Shown here: in pieces, positions 1,508 to 34,748 of the stretch | Position numbering within the stretch: the first letter of the stretch is position 1 | Layout of the letters: each line of letters opens with the position of its first letter | From: a virus | Direction: 5' to 3' (one strand) | DNA: 34,748 nt | Virus record (IMG/VR): IMGVR_UViG_3300044825_000641 | Coordinates: 1-34,748 of that record | Made by a program: the position numbers and the translations under genes | Notes under the pieces: model-generated | What the model was told of the DNA's origin: nothing | The model's input: the letters and a program-made list of their open reading frames with translations, nothing else | The model's database searches: none

Positions 1508-1529
1508 GCGGAGACATTAACCTAGCTGG

Positions 1530-1551
1530 AAACTGTTTGCAACTTTGGTCA
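1530..1551 (-). promoter_or_regulatory. Operator-like AAACAGTTT site upstream of the left minus-strand operon
   Basis: On the minus strand this reads CTATGACCAAAGTTGCAAACAGTTT, ending 23 bases before the first start codon of the leftward operon at 1507. The core AAACAGTTT (1538-1530) is the motif found in three other promoters here. The CTATGA..AAAG.TTGCAAA part also recurs upstream of the small terminase gene at 30042-30058. A TTGCAA -35 and a GTTAAT -10 (15-base spacing) are possible but poor. Binding is inferred from repetition only. Confidence 0.4.
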
Positions 1552-1806
1552 TAGGTTCCCCAAGGGTGATAGCTCCTGATCACTTCCGCGCCAGCAGGGA
1601 GAAAGAATACATACCCCTACCTACGCAACCCTAAGGCAACGATTCATCCTTGTCAGGCTTGTCTCACCCATGTACCCGACAAGTTCCGCAGTCCCTCGTT
1701 GACAGGCTGCTCCGGTGAGCTGGTGGTGAACCGCTACCGTATGTTTCCTTCCGCGCCACCCAGTTAGGTGCTTGGTTTCGCCCGGAGTGCGGTCAGCGGC
1801 GGCCAT
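1552..1806. other. Gene-free stretch with direct repeats and short inverted repeats
   Basis: No convincing coding frame lies here; the 106-codon minus frame at 1621-1941 runs through a terminator and a folded RNA candidate and has no family features. The bases CTTCCGCGCCA occur twice, at 1583-1593 and 1748-1758. Short complementary pairs exist: CTCCGG 1709-1714 with CCGGAG 1782-1787, CTTGTC near 1658 with GACAAG near 1678, and CTCCTG near 1573 with CAGGGAG near 1595 (one bulge). GC content is high and even. It lies downstream, on the minus strand, of the pseudoknotted RNA candidate and could be a second RNA domain reached by terminator read-through. Confidence 0.35.
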
Positions 1807-1828
1807 AAAAAAACCCCAAATCCTTGGG
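1807..1828 (-). terminator. Rho-independent terminator of the candidate RNA
   Basis: On the minus strand a CCCAA / TTGGG stem (1828-1824 with 1819-1815) with a four-base loop is followed by G and then seven T (1813-1807). The stem is short but the U-tract is ideal. It gives the candidate RNA a defined 3' end and argues against the coding frame that crosses it. Confidence 0.6.
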
Positions 1829-1958
1829 TGGTGCGGCCTTGGCGGGCATCCTTGGAATAAGTCCTCATCACAGAAATGACCAATTCCAAGTCTTTTTCGC
1901 ACCACCGAAAAATTCGGGGTATGACTGTGATGAGATTCCAACAGGTGCCACCCTGCTG
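1807..1958 (-). ncRNA. Candidate pseudoknotted small RNA with intrinsic terminator
   Basis: Five complementary pairings fit one compact fold. Read 5' to 3' on the minus strand: hairpin 1958-1939 (7 pairs, one of them G-U only on the minus strand), a 10-base arm at 1934-1925, hairpin 1917-1905, a 9-base arm 1906-1898, an 8-base arm 1890-1883, then the partners 1873-1864 (pairs with 1934-1925), 1858-1851 (pairs with 1890-1883) and 1835-1827 (pairs with 1906-1898), then a terminator. The first pairing crosses the other two, which makes a pseudoknot. All three long arms are perfect. I cannot assign an RNA family. Phage-borne ornate RNAs such as GOLLD are one possibility to test. Confidence 0.55.
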
Positions 1959-2042
1959 ACGCCTCGATTGTAAACCTTCTTAGCCCGAAAGTCGAATTCC
2001 TGAGTAATTTATAGGGTTACTAAAAAAAGTTGGGTTTGCCTG

Positions 2043-2070
2043 TTGACATGGCTAGTAAACAGTTTATTAT
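2043..2070 (+). promoter_or_regulatory. Early promoter with AAACAGTTT operator in the spacer
   Basis: A perfect TTGACA -35 (2043-2048) and a TATTAT -10 (2065-2070) are separated by 16 bases. The motif AAACAGTTT (2057-2065) fills the spacer and shares its last T with the -10 box, the same arrangement as the promoters at 26219 and 33630. A six-base inverted repeat, GTTGAC (2042-2047) and GTCAAC (2081-2086), brackets the promoter. Transcription would start near 2077 and read the whole plus-strand operon. An operator between -35 and -10 would repress by occlusion. Confidence 0.75.
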
Positions 2071-2486: not shown

Positions 2487-2697
2487 GCAACAAGAATATG
2501 AGGAACGTGACGCGCCACTACCTATTGCTGACTATCGCAGTAAGTATCAGTCGCTCGCGGCCAAAGCTCTTGGTGTTGCCCAGGCACTAAAAGATTTGCG
2601 TGATGCAAATTACCACGGCCCAGCCGTACTTGTTGAAGAACGTCTTATCGAATTAGCAACTGAGTTTCAAAACCTAAAAAGGAGAGGACATGACTAA
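2452..2697 (+). CDS. Hypothetical helical early protein
   Basis: An 81-residue protein, Gln/Glu-rich at the start (MDQALHHQQQLEQQEYEE) and helical later. The ATG at 2452 was preferred over one at 2434 because GGAG lies 6 bases before it. The C-terminal half alternates Leu and charged residues as in a helical hairpin or coiled coil. It overlaps the following HTH gene by 8 bases (ATGACTAA), implying coupled translation with that regulator. Function unknown. Confidence 0.6.
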   Translation: MDQALHHQQQLEQQEYEERDAPLPIADYRSKYQSLAAKALGVAQALKDLRDANYHGPAVLVEERLIELATEFQNLKRRGHD

Positions 2698-2902
2698 GTC
2701 TGGAAAAGTAGCTCAACATCTGCGTACCTTTAAGCACATCACTAGCTGGGAGGCAATTCAGAAGTACCGCGCCACTCGCCTAGCGGACATTATCTTTAGG
2801 TTGAAGTGTAAAGGCTGGCTGATTAGCACCGTGATGATGGAAACAAAAGACGGTACTCGATTTGCTCGGTACGTTCTATTAAAGGCTCCTAAAAATGGAT
2901 AA
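2690..2902 (+). CDS. Helix-turn-helix DNA-binding protein (HTH_39-like)
   Basis: A 70-residue protein. Residues about 8-50 read HLRTFKHITSWEAIQKYRAT then RLADIIFRLKCKGW, matching the HTH_39 pattern: a leading loop, ITSWEAI, an R-L-x-x-x-I-x-x-L recognition helix, and a KKGW turn before a beta wing. These small phage proteins are presumed DNA-binding regulators. GGAGAGG precedes the start. It is a candidate for a protein acting on the AAACNGTTT sites found elsewhere here, though nothing in the sequence proves that. The family call rests on pattern recall. Confidence 0.7.
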   Translation: MTKSGKVAQHLRTFKHITSWEAIQKYRATRLADIIFRLKCKGWLISTVMMETKDGTRFARYVLLKAPKNG

Positions 2903-6559: not shown

Positions 6560-7006
6560 CTACCATAACCCCATTTGTTTAAGAACGCCATAAATCACCG
6601 CAGCGGTTATTAAAATAATTCCCCACTCTTTTCGGGATTCCATCTGTTTGCGGTAGAACTCATCGTTTAATTCTCGGTGATCTTTGCGTAGTCTGACAAT
6701 AAGGGCCCGCACTTCGGACACGGCCTGCTTGCCAAATTCTTTCTCTACATCGCGGTACATGGCGGCTTCTGCGTCTTTAATCTGGCGAATGACCCGGTAC
6801 TCTTTGACCGCATCTATCCAGACCATATCGCCCCGGCGTTGAACTTCTTGCTGGCGGCGCTTCCAGGCTACTCTGGCCTTGGCTTCTTCGTCTAAAAAAC
6901 TGTTTACTTCTTTGGCGGTATCTTTGATCTCCCGCCCTACTTTTATTGCTTCCTTTATTCCCCCTAGTGCGGCCCTAACCGAAGCTGCTGGGTCTAAATC
7001 TGCCAT
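6560..7006 (-). CDS. Coiled-coil protein with C-terminal membrane anchor
   Basis: A 148-residue protein, almost wholly charged helix from residue 15 to 125, ending in a single membrane span (GIILITAAVIYGVLKQMGLW). Orientation of the basic flank predicts a tail-anchored protein with the coil in the cytoplasm. It is encoded between the other membrane coiled-coil protein and the holin, three bases from the former, so a role in lysis timing or late membrane events is likely. I know similar unannotated proteins in aquatic phages but no function. Confidence 0.7.
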   Translation of the reverse strand: MADLDPAASVRAALGGIKEAIKVGREIKDTAKEVNSFLDEEAKARVAWKRRQQEVQRRGDMVWIDAVKEYRVIRQIKDAEAAMYRDVEKEFGKQAVSEVRALIVRLRKDHRELNDEFYRKQMESRKEWGIILITAAVIYGVLKQMGLW

Positions 7007-26170: not shown

Positions 26171-26218
26171 GGATTACTCCAAGAATAAACCCGATGAACC
26201 CATCGGTAGGTAAAGCAA

Positions 26219-26247
26219 ATTAGAAACCGTTTACCAATAGATGTCAA
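26219..26247 (-). promoter_or_regulatory. Scaffold/coat promoter with AAACGGTTT operator in the spacer
   Basis: On the minus strand TTGACA (26247-26242), a 17-base spacer and TCTAAT (26224-26219) form a near-consensus sigma70 promoter. AAACGGTTT (26232-26224) sits in the spacer and shares its last T with the -10 box, exactly as in the early promoter at 2043-2070. It lies in the 80-base gap between portal and scaffold and would give high, separately controlled output of scaffold, coat and the small coat-associated gene. Confidence 0.75.
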
Positions 26248-28413: not shown

Positions 28414-29709
28414 TTACCCCATCCATGAGCCCGGAATCTGGTAAACCGGCTTCTTTGGGCCAGCCTTCCGTGGTTCGTTTACCACCAATCCAATGTACCG
28501 AAACGCATCTGCACCGTGCGAATAAATGTCGTGCAGGGGCGCTTTGGAAAACTGTTTGGTATCTGGGTCAACATCATACCGATAGTGCCGCAAGCATTGT
28601 AGCCCCTGATAGCAGTTTTCCTTATCGAAATAGCACTTCGTAAACATCGTGCGAGCCGCGTTGATCGAGTCCGCAATCGGGGTTCTCGGTATGACCTGAA
28701 CCTTGTAATTGGCCTGCCGAACTATGTCCGCAATCGACCGACCAGCCGCCGCTAGAGTTGTGTTCTCGGCGTCATGGGGCAGCCAAATGGTGTCGTACAC
28801 ATACCCAAAGGACTGCATCTGGGCTAGGTAGTAGCTCATGGTCTTTTGGTTATCTTCCATGTACCGGATGAGCCGAATCTCAAAGCCTATGAACTGCACA
28901 AACCAAATGGCCGTGTTGTCCGCCCAGCCAAGGTCGAATACCGCGTGGACGGGTTTCACGGCGTCATACGGGACTTTGGTGATCCGGCCATCCATTTCAG
29001 CAAGCGTCAGCTCATGGGCAAATACCGCCCCATCGACCGTCCGGCGGCATAAGCCTTCCCAGACGTTTAGGTAGGCATCGTGATCCCTGACCTCTAGGTT
29101 CTCTTTCTCTTCCCGCAAGGTCTGTGGAAACCACGGGTTATCCCGCCAGGTAATCTTCTGGATTGTGGCGTTCTCCGGTGGGCTGATCACAAACCGCTGG
29201 TAGGTGTCGTCGGTCTCAAGCTCCGGGTTAAAGGTCACCCATATCTCGGAGCCGTCCTTACGGATCGTGGGAATCAGGATATTCCAGCTCGTTTTGGATA
29301 TGGTCTGTGCCTCTTCGCACCAGCAGATGTCCACGCCCTCAAAGGACTTGATGGACATGATGTTGTTTTTTAGGCCCACAAAAAAGAACTCGGTGCCGTT
29401 CCTACCCCTGATGCTGGTCTGGGTCACCTCATAGAACTCCGTTAGCCCAAGGGCGTCGATTTGGTCAGCCAATAGCTTATGGACTGAATCCTTAATCGAG
29501 ACCTGAAACTCCCGGGCGCAGAGAATCCGCAGCGGGTCTTTAGCTCCCTTAATCAGAAGCGCTCTAGCCACCCCCCAGCTCTTAGCTCCACCCCGGCCAC
29601 CGTACAGAACCTTGTACCGCTTGGGCTCAAACAGGCAGGCCAGCTTTACCGGAAACTCGGCCTTTGCAACCGCCTGGGCTAGTAGCTCTCTGTCCTCAAC
29701 CTCAGACAT
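28414..29709 (-). CDS. terL: Terminase large subunit
   Basis: A 431-residue packaging motor of the PBSX/Terminase_3 type. The ATPase domain has Walker A GGRGGAKS (37-44), Walker B DICWCEEA with Glu132-Glu133, and the coupling motif TFNP (159-162). The RNase-H-like nuclease has FDLGWAD (Asp259), PHDAE (Asp314) and HGADAFRY (Asp401) as metal ligands. It cuts concatemers and pumps DNA through the portal encoded next. The start overlaps the end of the small terminase gene by 8 bases. Confidence 0.96.
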   Translation of the reverse strand: MSEVEDRELLAQAVAKAEFPVKLACLFEPKRYKVLYGGRGGAKSWGVARALLIKGAKDPLRILCAREFQVSIKDSVHKLLADQIDALGLTEFYEVTQTSIRGRNGTEFFFVGLKNNIMSIKSFEGVDICWCEEAQTISKTSWNILIPTIRKDGSEIWVTFNPELETDDTYQRFVISPPENATIQKITWRDNPWFPQTLREEKENLEVRDHDAYLNVWEGLCRRTVDGAVFAHELTLAEMDGRITKVPYDAVKPVHAVFDLGWADNTAIWFVQFIGFEIRLIRYMEDNQKTMSYYLAQMQSFGYVYDTIWLPHDAENTTLAAAGRSIADIVRQANYKVQVIPRTPIADSINAARTMFTKCYFDKENCYQGLQCLRHYRYDVDPDTKQFSKAPLHDIYSHGADAFRYIGLVVNEPRKAGPKKPVYQIPGSWMG

Positions 29710-30018: not shown

Positions 30019-30058
30019 ATTTTGCCTGATCTGTTTACTATTTGCAACCTTTTCATAG
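30019..30058. promoter_or_regulatory. Divergent regulatory region between small terminase and the plus-strand gene
   Basis: Minus strand: CTATGAAAAGGTTGCAAATA then GTAAACAG. It contains a possible TTGCAA -35 (30047-30042) and CAAAAT -10 (30024-30019) with 17-base spacing, and TAGTAAACAG (30040-30031), identical over 10 bases to the early-promoter operator region at 2053-2062. Plus strand: TACTAT (30036-30041) could be the -10 box of the gene at 30088. The CTATGA...AAAG.TTGCAAA block repeats that at 1530-1551. Promoter strength in either direction looks modest. Confidence 0.45.
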
Positions 30059-30087: not shown

Positions 30088-30297
30088 ATGGAATCTAAGT
30101 ATCCCTTTATGTCTTTTTACCTCGATGGCTCGCAAGTCTGTGCTGAGTTCCACTCTCAATGGGCGGAAATGTCCGACATCCGCAAACTTGAGGTGCTCAA
30201 TACGGTCATGGAGCTGGTCATTGAAAAAACCTCGTCCGTTGTTACTTCCCTAGAGATCCAACGAACATCTCAATCGGGTCACCGGCTGGTGCAGTAA
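30088..30297 (+). CDS. Plus-strand orphan gene inside the late minus operon
   Basis: A 69-residue protein starting MESKYPFMSFYLDGSQVCAE. The ATG at 30088 follows a strong AGGAGG by 6 bases; a longer reading from 30022 has no ribosome-binding site. The sequence looks like a small beta-alpha protein (FYLDGSQVCAEFHSQWAEM, then a helix to about residue 47). It is the only plus-strand gene right of 5632. Its last 56 bases overlap, tail to tail, the end of the HExxH gene. It could be an early regulator read from the divergent control region. Confidence 0.65.
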   Translation: MESKYPFMSFYLDGSQVCAEFHSQWAEMSDIRKLEVLNTVMELVIEKTSSVVTSLEIQRTSQSGHRLVQ

Positions 30298-32266: not shown

Positions 32267-32550
32267 CAGCATCCCCAGTTTTTGAGCGCCGCAGCCTTAC
32301 GGGTTGGGCGGCCCTTGTCGTCCTTCATTGGCCCCGGCACCCCGCTCATCCTCGCGCAAAAACTTTTTTTGCGAGCTGCGTCAGCTTTTGTTTTAGGGTT
32401 TGGAGCTGGAGCTTTAAGGTTTGAATTATTTTTTGCATTGTATTCGGCCCTTCCTTTTGCGGTCATTCCCGCACCCTGCTCGACGGGCTTATAGTTTTTG
32501 CCCTTGCCGGTCGTGGTTCTGGGAATAGGTTTATTGGTAACTTTGGCCAT
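32266..32550 (-). CDS. Conserved basic phage protein (DUF6321-like)
   Basis: A 94-residue protein. GAGMTAKGRAEYNAKNNSNL, then KSFCARMSGVPGPMKDDKGR and PTRKAAALKNWGC are the DUF6321 signature of T4-like and many other aquatic phages. Function unknown; the invariant Cys near KSFCARM and the terminal Cys stand out. The ATG at 32550 is preferred over one at 32556 because GGTGG lies 7 bases upstream. It overlaps the GroES gene end by 20 bases. Confidence 0.8.
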   Translation of the reverse strand: MAKVTNKPIPRTTTGKGKNYKPVEQGAGMTAKGRAEYNAKNNSNLKAPAPNPKTKADAARKKSFCARMSGVPGPMKDDKGRPTRKAAALKNWGC

Positions 32551-32833
32551 TTTCATCCACCCAGCAGACGTCTTTCCAAGACATGATCAGGTACTTTTCA
32601 CCCGCCTCTTCGTACTCTTGGAACGTCAGGTATTCGCCTGTCGTCCCGTATTGAATCTTGTCGCCCACCTTACAGGGGTTTGGCATTAAACGGCCCTTCT
32701 TGTCGTACTCCCCCGGCCCTACCGCAACGACTTCACCCATATTCGGGTTTTCCCGCATGATTACATCCAAAATGGCGCTCTTCTCGCGCTCAATCGGTTT
32801 GACAACAATACGGTCACGCATCGGTCTGATCAT
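32531..32833 (-). CDS. GroES-like co-chaperonin
   Basis: A 100-residue member of the Cpn10 fold. PMRDRIVVKPIEREKSAI is the first strand and start of the mobile loop. GEVVAVGPGEYDKKGRLMPN is the roof loop, KVGDKIQYGTTGEYLTF the core, and KYLIMSWKDVCWV the last strand (compare VLIMSESDI in GroES). The mobile-loop part (AILDVI) has the hydrophobic residues that bind GroEL. No GroEL gene is visible, so it would cap the host chaperonin, as T4 gp31 does for coat folding. No clear ribosome-binding site; it overlaps the upstream gene by 20 bases. Confidence 0.88.
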   Translation of the reverse strand: MIRPMRDRIVVKPIEREKSAILDVIMRENPNMGEVVAVGPGEYDKKGRLMPNPCKVGDKIQYGTTGEYLTFQEYEEAGEKYLIMSWKDVCWVDENGQSYQ

Positions 32834-33011
32834 TTTTCGGGGGCCGTCCTCTTCGTTTAGGTTCTAGGTTTCTATCGTCAACAATGGGCTCTGGGGTCTT
32901 TTGGTACTCCCCGCACCATTGGCTGTCTTGCTTCATTACAAACTCTGGGTACCGCTGGCACATACCGAACTTGCCGGTAGGCTGGAAAAACCGACAAGTC
33001 CCGCAGTTCAT
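32814..33011 (-). CDS. Small Cys-rich protein with AT-hook-like tail
   Basis: A 65-residue protein. MNCGTCRFFQPTGKFGMCQR, then QDSQWCGEYQ has four cysteines in the order C-x2-C...C...C, likely one zinc or iron site. The C-terminus contains KRRGRPPK, an AT-hook core (RGRP) that would bind AT-rich minor grooves. The combination suggests a small nucleic-acid-binding protein. Overlaps its neighbours by 4 and 20 bases. Confidence 0.65.
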   Translation of the reverse strand: MNCGTCRFFQPTGKFGMCQRYPEFVMKQDSQWCGEYQKTPEPIVDDRNLEPKRRGRPPKNDQTDA

Positions 33012-33364
33012 TTCAGGTTTTCCAGCTTGTAAATTGTGGTGTTGATCAGGTCAGTAATGCCGTCGATTAGATTCTGAATTTCCGAATCTTTCGGCAGCTC
33101 TTCACGGGTCTCGTCCACATACTCTTGCATAGCCTTCATATACTTAAGCGGGTCTTTTTCGATGTAGAACTCGGGCTCAAACTCCCCTACCAGCCCATTT
33201 CGGCCCATGTAAGTCTCAATCAGACCGTCTACTAAATCAGGCATGGCTTCGTAATACTTCTGCAAAGCCTTGTGCGCCGAGTAGCTCTTGGTCTGCCAAT
33301 GCTGAATATGAGCGCAAGTCGCTGAATGTAAGAGCGTCTGCGCGAAAGCTTCCATTTCACCCAT
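33008..33364 (-). CDS. DUF5856-like, ferritin-like helical protein
   Basis: A 118-residue helical protein. FAQTLLHSATCAHIQHWQTK, then SYSAHKALQKYYEAMPDLVD and GLIETYMGRNG follow the DUF5856 pattern of T4-type phages. The repeated His and Glu in the first two helices (H13, H19, H22, H30, E39) resemble the di-iron or Dps-type four-helix bundle. Metal binding is inferred only. Overlaps neighbours by 8 and 4 bases. A start two codons in (ATG at 33358) is also possible. Confidence 0.7.
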   Translation of the reverse strand: MGEMEAFAQTLLHSATCAHIQHWQTKSYSAHKALQKYYEAMPDLVDGLIETYMGRNGLVGEFEPEFYIEKDPLKYMKAMQEYVDETREELPKDSEIQNLIDGITDLINTTIYKLENLK

Positions 33365-33689
33365 TTTGTGATTGTGCCTCTGGTTGTTGGTTCAGGCAAT
33401 AGACATTCACCATGCGCGGCCCTGTTTTTGCAGTTGTTGGCTTTCCCTTGATGCACTCCACCCGACCGGAGGCGACCAGCTTAAATAGCACCGCCTTTAC
33501 GGAATGATTCTTCGCATGAACCTTAATTGAGATTTCGCTGCGAGTTAGGTTCGGAGTCCGCTTTAAGACCTTCAGGATGTCTCGGGACAAAAACGGTCTG
33601 CGTCTGCGTTTCTTGGCTTCCATAGCAGAATTATAAACCGTTTGTTGTGGGGGCGGGTGTACCACAACCTGAATCTCACCACTACTCAT
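33357..33689 (-). CDS. Small DNA-binding winged-helix-like protein
   Basis: A 110-residue protein. From residue 23 it reads MEAKKRRRRPFLSRDILKVL, then NLTRSEISIKVHAKNHSVKA and VLFKLVASGRVECIKGKP: a basic N-terminus, a helix-turn-helix and a wing. Such proteins regulate transcription or replication. The start at 33689 overlaps the RusA gene as ATGA with GGGGG upstream. A perfect TATAAT with the AAACNGTTT motif lies just before Met23 (ATG at 33623), so an 88-residue form may be made from a leaderless transcript. It is one candidate to bind the AAACNGTTT sites. Confidence 0.65.
   Translation of the reverse strand: MSSGEIQVVVHPPPQQTVYNSAMEAKKRRRRPFLSRDILKVLKRTPNLTRSEISIKVHAKNHSVKAVLFKLVASGRVECIKGKPTTAKTGPRMVNVYCLNQQPEAQSQNG
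33630..33643 (-). promoter_or_regulatory. Internal promoter element with AAACGGTTT and TATAAT
   Basis: On the minus strand AAACGGTT is directly followed by TATAAT (33635-33630), the same geometry as the early and scaffold promoters. No good -35 lies 16-18 bases upstream (CCCGCC), so an activator or alternative contact would be needed. Transcription from it would start within about seven bases of the ATG at 33623. Confidence 0.45.
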
Positions 33690-34045
33690 TCTGTGCCGCC
33701 CCCAAGTAATCTTACCTTGATCATTCCCCCAATTTGTTGGCTGACTTTATATTCGCAGTCGATCCGGTTGTCGTTGATGTTCCAGGCGTCCGCAAGACCA
33801 TCCTGACCGGCCTTGAACGACCCAATCATATTGTCCTGATCCCGCTTTCTTTTATCTGGTGGGTAGAACTCAATTTCTAGTTTGATCTTTCCTTCTTCGG
33901 GTAAGGCCCACTTAGCCTGCATCGCTAAGACCCTGACAGCGAACCGATACTTTTTCTTGGCCGACGCCTGGGGCGCCCAATGGCCAGAGTAGTTAGGGCT
34001 TAGTTCCTTGGGCGGCCAAGGTAAACATAATCTATCTTTATTCAT
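33686..34045 (-). CDS. rusA: RusA-type Holliday junction resolvase
   Basis: A 119-residue resolvase that cuts four-way junctions before packaging. The N-terminus LCLPWPPKELSPNYSGHW is typical, and the metal site is RDQDN (two Asp), DGLADAW and NINDNRID, the D-x-D...D pattern of RusA. The ATG at 34045 overlaps the preceding stop as ATGA; in-frame upstream ATG (34054) and TTG (34060) also exist. Placed beside late genes, it likely supplies unbranched DNA to the terminase. Length is standard (E. coli RusA 120). Confidence 0.9.
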   Translation of the reverse strand: MNKDRLCLPWPPKELSPNYSGHWAPQASAKKKYRFAVRVLAMQAKWALPEEGKIKLEIEFYPPDKRKRDQDNMIGSFKAGQDGLADAWNINDNRIDCEYKVSQQIGGMIKVRLLGGGTE

Positions 34046-34748
34046 TCCGTACATTCGCAAGGTAAATCAAACCCAACAAATGGCAAAGTAATTTGAGCTT
34101 GATGCATCATTATTATTTCTTTCCATGCGTAATTTCTTCCTAACCCTTTAATTATCGTAAGTTCAGCATTTTCTTCCATTTTTAATGCTCTGTTTAATAA
34201 ATTTGGATGTTTTTCATACAAATCAATTATTTCTTTTGGTTTGCTTGATGGGCAAAAAAAACAAGCTGATTTTCCGGGTAAAGTAATACCCGATTTTTTT
34301 ATTGTTTCAATACATTCTTCACGTTCCCATCCCCATTCAATTAGAGGAAATTTGTAATCGTATTGTTTATCAATTCTTTTTAATGCATTTTCTTTACGGC
34401 GCTCTTCGCCTGCATCGTAACCAATATATTTAATAACTTTTAATCCGTTGGCCCAGGCATCAATAGCAGGTTGCCATTGTTTTATAAATTTGTGTTGTGG
34501 TCTTATTTTAAAATGATCGGAACAACGTTTAAAACCATAAGCTATACTCGGCAAAGATTTTAAATTTTGACATTCTTGTTCCAATGTAACTTTTACCCCA
34601 TCTTTTTCTTTTTGAACAATTATTATTTCGGGATAATTTTTATTTTTTAACCAATTAGAAAAATTTTTTATATGTTCATAAATTTCTGGACGTTCTGCGC
34701 CGGTGTCGGCAAATAAAATTAAATCTATTGGTTGTTTTTGATTTACAA
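34042..34748 (-). CDS. PAPS-reductase/ATP-pyrophosphatase-family protein, N-terminus beyond the window
   Basis: The frame is open to the right edge, so at least 235 codons are visible. LILFADTGAERPEIYEHI is the part just after the PP-loop in the PAPS-reductase-like superfamily, whose SGGKDS motif would lie off the window. SIAYGFKRCSDHFKIRPQHK and the Cys pair CFFCP follow. Phage members are of unknown function; relatives include DndC-type sulfur-modification enzymes and sulfonucleotide reductases. The gene is strikingly AT-rich (long T and A runs, ATA and TTA codons) beside GC-balanced neighbours, which suggests recent acquisition. It ends in an ATGA overlap with rusA. Confidence 0.8.
   Translation of the reverse strand, partial: VNQKQPIDLILFADTGAERPEIYEHIKNFSNWLKNKNYPEIIIVQKEKDGVKVTLEQECQNLKSLPSIAYGFKRCSDHFKIRPQHKFIKQWQPAIDAWANGLKVIKYIGYDAGEERRKENALKRIDKQYDYKFPLIEWGWEREECIETIKKSGITLPGKSACFFCPSSKPKEIIDLYEKHPNLLNRALKMEENAELTIIKGLGRNYAWKEIIMMHQAQITLPFVGFDLPCECTE

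Follow-up and report, generated by a model that had tools for sequence, protein, structure and literature searches.

On balance, the comparative evidence favours the view that the palindrome type TAAACNGTTTA is a repressor operator located on the early and internal promoters of a freshwater phage and its relatives, and that it is read most likely by wHTH_C, a small winged-helix protein which would hold the place of Cro in this clade. A single regulator acting on several modules had been proposed in a preliminary description of the same DNA. This idea agrees with the detection of one shared putative operator, kept throughout an uncultured clade, at the promoters of early, packaging (TerS), capsid (scaffold) and accessory (wHTH) genes. 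The operator would provide a testable single-operator regulon for a widespread group of uncultured freshwater phages without a known regulator. Literature searches on the motif, on operators shared by early and late promoters and on winged-helix replacements of Cro revealed no description of the operator or of the protein.

The phage and its relatives

The window, i.e. the whole stretch of DNA that was analysed, comprises the 34,748 bases of a virus record. It contains P22-like head genes, of which those for portal, scaffold, coat and large terminase matched head-and-packaging PHROGs. According to the portal comparison, the nearest named phages are two Manatee Spring contigs (MW202674 and MW202520, both freshwater) and Xanthomonas phage PBR31, with identities of 47-63 %. 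Near DNA searches matched approximately 2 % of the query in phages, at the large terminase, and gave no match to the window in E. coli genomes. The window is regarded as a freshwater phage belonging to a clade of uncultured, apparently lytic podoviruses. Neither a tyrosine integrase nor a serine recombinase/resolvase nor an HTH_3 repressor was detected in 16 clade records, which may be fragments.

A long leftward unit starts at 1507, passes the contig ends and includes the genes for terminase, portal, scaffold and coat. The rightward early unit begins at 2057. Each unit would be transcribed continuously. Two genes of the early unit, both on the minus strand, code for a DNA cytosine-5 methyltransferase (3-728, clipped by the window edge; TIGR00675 with 86.7 bits, under the cut-off of 100.65) and a phosphoadenosine phosphosulfate reductase-like protein (34042-34584; phrog_424). 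A gene for a GroES-like co-chaperonin (phrog_3188) is located at 32531-32833 on the minus strand and was found in most of the relatives compared.

Distribution of the palindrome in the window

Exact copies of AAACNGTTT start at positions 1530, 2057, 6897, 26224, 28549 and 33635. Six copies compare with a mean of 0.82 expected, and none of 100 dinucleotide shuffles reached this number; the pattern read backwards does not occur in the window. Three copies are intergenic (1530, 2057 and 26224), one lies at a gene start (33635) and two are intragenic (6897 and 28549), the first three and the copy at 33635 being the promoter copies. The following sites were identified:

2043-2070, plus strand: PR, rightward early promoter; -35 TTGACA (2043-2048), spacer of 16, -10 TATTAT (2065-2070)
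2057-2065, plus strand: core of the putative PR operator TAAACAGTTTA, overlapping the -10
1514-1542, minus strand: PL, leftward early promoter; TTGCAA (1542-1537), 17 nt, TAATGT (1519-1514)
1530-1538, minus strand: core of the putative PL operator, overlapping the -35
26219-26247, minus strand: promoter between the portal and scaffold genes; TTGACA (26247-26242), spacer of 17, TCTAAT (26224-26219)
26224-26232, minus strand: core of the putative scaffold operator, overlapping the -10
33630-33643, minus strand: element of the wHTH gene; core 33635-33643, TATAAT 33635-33630, just before the ATG at 33623
30019-30047, minus strand: promoter-like TTGCAA-17-CAAAAT before the small terminase (TerS) gene, with the degenerate operator AAACAGATC
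6897-6905, no strand: exact copy within ORF 6560-7006, taken as chance
28549-28557, no strand: exact copy within the large terminase gene, taken as coding

The five coordinates given in the preliminary description are all correct, though the list omitted the two intragenic copies. Its central observation holds exactly at three promoters, where the final T of the motif doubles as the first T of the -10 box (2065, 26224 and 33635). AAACNGTTT, described there as a palindromic half-arm (AAAC/GTTT), is a full palindrome except for its central base. Because of this symmetry the motif cannot point anywhere, and the statement that the copies point in the direction of transcription is meaningless. Of the two further sites described, that at 1530 overlaps a -35 and not a -10 box, while that at 30031-30040 is degenerate in the window and exact in some relatives. 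The latter is situated between the starts of TerS and of a small divergent ORF of approximately 69 amino acids (30088-30297, plus strand), and relatives also possess a divergent start codon there. The copy at 28549 has a counterpart in a similar coding context in the terminase gene of L151, which lacks the promoter sites.

A promoter scan recovered the promoter at 2043-2070 with 11 of 12 matches. It did not recover the scaffold promoter, because the -10 of the latter lacks an A at position 2, nor the promoters at 33635 and 30019-30047. No -35 was seen at the wHTH_C promoter (33635). The first leftward gene has its start codon at 1507, six bases past the PL -10, and at both the wHTH_C (33623-33635) and the PL promoter (1507-1519, both minus strand) exactly six bases separate a -10-like box from the ATG, a spacing also present in L166, L076 and others. 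Due to this short distance, leaderless transcripts would result.

Two promoter geometries

Relative to the promoter boxes, the operator occurs in two layouts. In the first, the motif lies on the -10, as at PR, the scaffold promoter and the wHTH_C promoter. In the second, seen at PL, it lies on the -35, with TTGCAA followed after 17 nt by TATTCT, TAATCT, TAGTAT, TAATGT or similar. PR itself shows the second layout in L078, L111, L170, L175 and others (TTGCAAACNGTTTACTAATC...); hence the geometry of the right early promoter switches between relatives. The constant position with respect to the -10 that had been suggested thus applies to PR, scaffold and wHTH_C and fails at PL and at some right promoters. 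When 74 motif copies were scored, 20 were found in a -35/-10 frame with at least 9 of 12 matches, and by position all 20 are PR or scaffold sites.

A site that may sit on either box fits a protein blocking RNA polymerase better than an activator or a fixed element. As expected of a repressor operator, the sites overlap the contacts of RNA polymerase without adopting one fixed, activator-like position, and occlusion of the polymerase would be the consequence of their occupation. It is improbable that the motif serves an activator or, as a promoter element, an RNA polymerase modified by the phage. This reading would explain the constant -10 overlap at PR and scaffold, the scaffold -10 (TNTAAT) without the key second A and the missing -35 at wHTH_C. 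However, the PR and scaffold promoters already contain TTGACA, PL and the alternative PR have the site on the -35, the palindromic symmetry suggests a dimeric protein, and equivalent outgroup sites adjoin Cro-like genes. A sigma-like or activator element was rejected on account of the two geometries.

Conservation among relatives

In 17 clade sequences (423 kb), which are related so that their counts are not independent events, 25 copies of AAACNGTTT were found in 17.4 kb of intergenic DNA, whereas 64 odd palindromes of the same composition gave an intergenic mean of 0.78, the next best of them reaching 5 copies. The coding DNA of these sequences (~406 kb) harbors 49 copies compared to a control mean of 6.7, a number that is too high because spurious ORFs cover several of the PR and PL sites, coding and intergenic DNA having been separated by a simple ORF picker; the excess also includes coding sites repeated in relatives. 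The scan of relatives proposed earlier thus revealed sites concentrated upstream of genes. Upstream of the scaffold gene, the core is exact in 32 of 33 distinct clade sequences (at least 66 % identity in the scaffold protein) and carries one mismatch in the remaining one, while it was exact in none of 25 more distant outgroup phages. That the copies reflect chance or the composition of AT-rich promoters has a negligible probability: the motif is short and two of the six window copies are intragenic, but shuffles, control palindromes and the conservation in relatives speak against it. Chance was rejected on the basis of the shuffles and the control palindromes, and the scaffold-upstream counts contradict it as well.

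Within 19 aligned scaffold promoters, which had been chosen for an exact core, the core arms and TTGACA are invariant; changes occur at the second -10 base, over much of the spacer and directly next to the core. The sequences of the PR alignment were selected by a pattern containing the core, and conservation of the PR core in that alignment is therefore by construction. Unbiased numbers are those for 51 PR loci and for the regions upstream of scaffold, TerS and wHTH_C. The exact PR core was found in 38 of the 51 loci with an HTH_39 gene. The remaining 13 comprise 11 loci truncated by the contig start, L087 with a single mismatch and L097 with a deletion. Compared to its near-identical relative L098 (2360-3080), L097 (80-760) lacks approximately 65 bp comprising the right early promoter and operator, which is either a real variant or an assembly fault.

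Upstream of TerS, 51 clade sequences yielded 15 exact matches, 16 with one and 20 with two mismatches, the window being among the latter and some of the mismatched hits lying at positions other than the promoter site. At the TerS promoter, the exact core is found in distant clade members. In distant relatives, PL contains AAATAGTTT with one mismatch, and in L111 a longer form, TTGCAAACNGTTTGCAA, was detected that may show the full site.

Candidate readers of the operator

Both helix-turn-helix proteins that had been named as possible regulators were compared with the distribution of the operator, which argues for the one encoded at 33357-33689 and against the one at 2690-2902:

33357-33623, minus strand: wHTH_C, winged-helix protein of 88 amino acids, favoured repressor candidate
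2690-2902, plus strand: HTH_39 protein (PF14090), considered as operator reader and disfavoured

It is highly improbable that the operator is read by the HTH_39 protein, which, like Cro, is produced from the rightward early operon. Its gene is located in the PR operon, it is present in 10 of 10 clade records and it yields a confident winged-helix model. Its profile, however, also detects it in three outgroup records (L276, L280 and L270) that have nearly the same recognition helix and no wHTH_C. At the promoters of these three, no AAACNGTTT was seen, one L280 copy lying outside the 20 kb read; the L276 and L280 copies examined sit in ORFs, and L270 is devoid of any copy. L276 and L280, with the nearly identical helix (ITSWEAI..YRATRLAD), carry other palindromes at their early promoters, and the family is far wider than the motif, with 485 confirmed relatives in viral contigs versus 65 for wHTH_C. 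The protein was rejected as reader since the operator is not present wherever a protein with the same helix occurs. A third candidate, p118 (33008-33364; phrog_858), was discarded as well, as L046, L047, L152, L276 and L280 possess p118 and no promoter copies were seen in them.

The wHTH_C profile was found in 10 of 10 clade records and in none of the 13 outgroup records searched, a co-occurrence with the operator that comes close to one event because both share one clade history. Its start is probably at 33623, an ATG that is conserved and corresponds to residue 23 within the longer ORF 33357-33689. The DNA element just before the start is present in 54 of 56 loci of relatives, the exceptions by pattern being L183 (exact core, no TATAAT) and L207. 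Members of the nearer subgroup have the core first, then TATAAT, six bases and the ATG of wHTH_C. The far subgroup has kept the element upstream of wHTH_C though the reading frame through it differs. At the position of wHTH_C, L054 contains a syntenic wHTH gene with a weak profile match (E 0.003) and a different helix, and no AAACNGTTT was found on its contig of 9.2 kb.

AlphaFold2 predicted a winged-helix core for wHTH_C (core pLDDT about 90). Among the families that the structural aligner listed, the fold resembles many MarR/ArsR-type domains without a single clear relative, many unrelated winged-helix folds being tied; VIA gave Z values of up to 11.4 versus Rv1404 (rmsd 1.2 over 64 residues). 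Foldseek returned no match at E 0.001 or better for the wHTH_C or the HTH_39 model. By sequence, no family exceeded its curated cut-off for wHTH_C, the best being HTH_24 with 17.6 bits versus 21.9.

Since wHTH_C had no match among 50,697 annotated phage records, it is a protein without known function. This would also be compatible with a regulator of the host that reads the operator and ties the phage promoters to the state of the host, and phage sites for host regulators do exist. Nevertheless, such an origin of the reader is unlikely: outgroups with related structural genes lack the site, even if their hosts may differ, and the early promoters of outgroup phages carry palindromes adjoining a phage-encoded Cro-like gene, which suggests that the outgroup reader is made by the phage.

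Outgroup operators and a possible operator exchange

The P22_Cro family (PF14549) was detected in none of 14 clade records at E 0.1 and in five of seven outgroup records. In L280, a Cro-like gene lies beside two copies of TGTAAAGCTGNCTTACA, which overlap TACATT and TACAAT boxes as in PR; within the 20 kb examined, this palindrome occurs at early promoters only. L276 contains TTAAGATAGCTTAA-type sites (seven strand hits compared to 0.23 expected) at the start of its Cro-like gene and near that gene, at the right early promoter, where the site overlaps TAATAT, and upstream of a wHTH gene; a further such site, differing from the query at two positions, precedes a TerS-like gene. In the control region of this phage (6090-7199), Cro-like and winged-helix genes both lie behind the same palindrome type. 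Because the wHTH gene of L276 follows a Cro-type operator, an operator before a wHTH gene does not alone name the reader. A search for repeated palindromes in outgroup phages at strict settings yielded none that were informative and also missed the known sites of L276 and of the window.

An arrangement with one palindrome on several promoters seems to predate the clade of the window, because the palindromes of L280 and L276 sit on corresponding promoters. In the clade, the sequence of the palindrome appears to have changed, and probably the reader too. TAAACNGTTTA, TGTAAAGCTGNCTTACA and TTAAGATAGCTTAA would then form a natural series, with a different operator going along with a different repressor at corresponding promoters, which bears on the question of how phages exchange a master switch while keeping control of several promoters.

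Proposed mode of action

According to the favoured model, the operator type TAAACNGTTTA is common to PL, PR and the promoters within the leftward unit (wHTH_C, TerS and scaffold). A dimeric DNA-binding protein on the site would cover the -10 or -35 and thus block the RNA polymerase of the host. wHTH_C, the product of the leftward early unit, would bind the palindrome, block the early promoters and also dampen the TerS and scaffold promoters, taking the place of the Cro-type repressor that has its own palindrome in outgroup phages. It would limit itself, because a copy of its operator precedes its own gene. A repressor acting on early and capsid promoters needs a release step, and our guess is that replicating phage DNA titrates or dilutes the protein. 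Some data are at odds with the wHTH_C model, as the TerS copy of the window is degenerate and PL of distant relatives has one mismatch. The AAAC and GTTT arms are 5 bp apart from centre to centre; this leaves little room for two ordinary winged-helix domains next to each other and makes a simple winged-helix dimer difficult.

More tentatively, it is conceivable that Cro has given way, in an abundant clade, to tiny winged-helix repressors of a family not described before, that the early, packaging and capsid operators were rewritten in the process, and that the repressor governs the whole genome, is self-limiting and is titrated by replicating DNA, a scenario we regard as possible rather than probable. 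If it is true, promoter firing follows the copy number of the genome.

On the other hand, the protein might maintain lysogeny or a carrier state, like the repressor of cluster A mycobacteriophages, and not govern the lytic cycle. One operator on most promoters would shut down the whole genome, and cluster A phages have genome-wide sites (PMC6550527). We consider this distinctly unlikely, as the candidate gene is itself part of the operon to be silenced and the 16 clade records revealed no tyrosine integrase, serine recombinase/resolvase or HTH_3 gene. It is for the latter reason that a lytic-cycle governor is preferred over a lysogeny switch.

Noncoding elements

A conserved, structured noncoding sequence is located between the early promoters (1545-1990, minus strand). 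It comprises a TATAAT-like box near 1972-1967, a small stem and an RNA of approximately 150 nt that ends in GGGGTTTTTTT near 1808; a second noncoding element then runs up to the 1530 site. In 25 relatives, 99.5 % of the cells of the first element are paired over 44 predicted pairs, six of which are changed on both sides, compared to 6 of 35 on the opposite strand. For the second element (30 sequences), 17 of 35 pairs are changed on both sides, compared to 11 of 33 on the opposite strand. In many relatives, both sides of a further stem found by eye, CTCATCACAG/CTGTGATGAG, are changed; this stem would form a pseudoknot. Rfam gave no match at the gathering score for this region, which is a candidate for a new phage RNA. 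Another hairpin, CCGATGGGTTCATCGG, with a T-rich tail is present in the leader of the scaffold gene (26191-26206, minus strand). Both of its arms change together in relatives (CCAATG/CATTGG; CCAGTTA/TAACTGG), even in those without the operator.

Comparison with known systems

In its predicted fold, wHTH_C is similar to the small winged-helix regulators of the MarR/ArsR type, a fold shared by many families, but it differs from them in that it has no sequence match above a family cut-off. Of the named relatives nearest by portal, PBR31 is a temperate phage with an integrase and repressors according to PMC10975493. None of PBR31, MW202674 and MW202520 possesses wHTH_C, which the clade has, and their four, one and zero motif copies, respectively, lie inside annotated genes.

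Cluster A mycobacteriophages (L5, Bxb1) have one type of repressor site at many places in the genome; the motif varies between related phages, and a repressor site is situated upstream of the repressor gene (PMC6550527, PMC9283540). These operators and stoperators are 13 bp long, asymmetric, oriented and mostly located outside promoters, and the phages are temperate. By contrast, the clade has palindromic sites of 9-11 bp in promoters and no integrase was found. Asymmetric, oriented, mostly non-promoter sites of 13 bp are thus not what was found here, as is also evident from the palindromic core and its intergenic enrichment.

The Cro operators of P22 and lambda (OL/OR) are palindromic and located on divergent early promoters. 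The clade resembles these phages, as it likewise has palindromic operators on both divergent early promoters, overlapping the -10 or -35, and it shares P22-like head genes; its outgroup relatives possess genes of the P22_Cro family. What separates the clade from P22 and lambda is that it yielded no gene of the Cro, CI or HTH_3 type (P22_Cro in 0 of 14, HTH_3 in 0 of 16 records), that structured noncoding sequence and not a repressor gene lies between its early promoters, and that its operators are also present on the scaffold, TerS and wHTH promoters.
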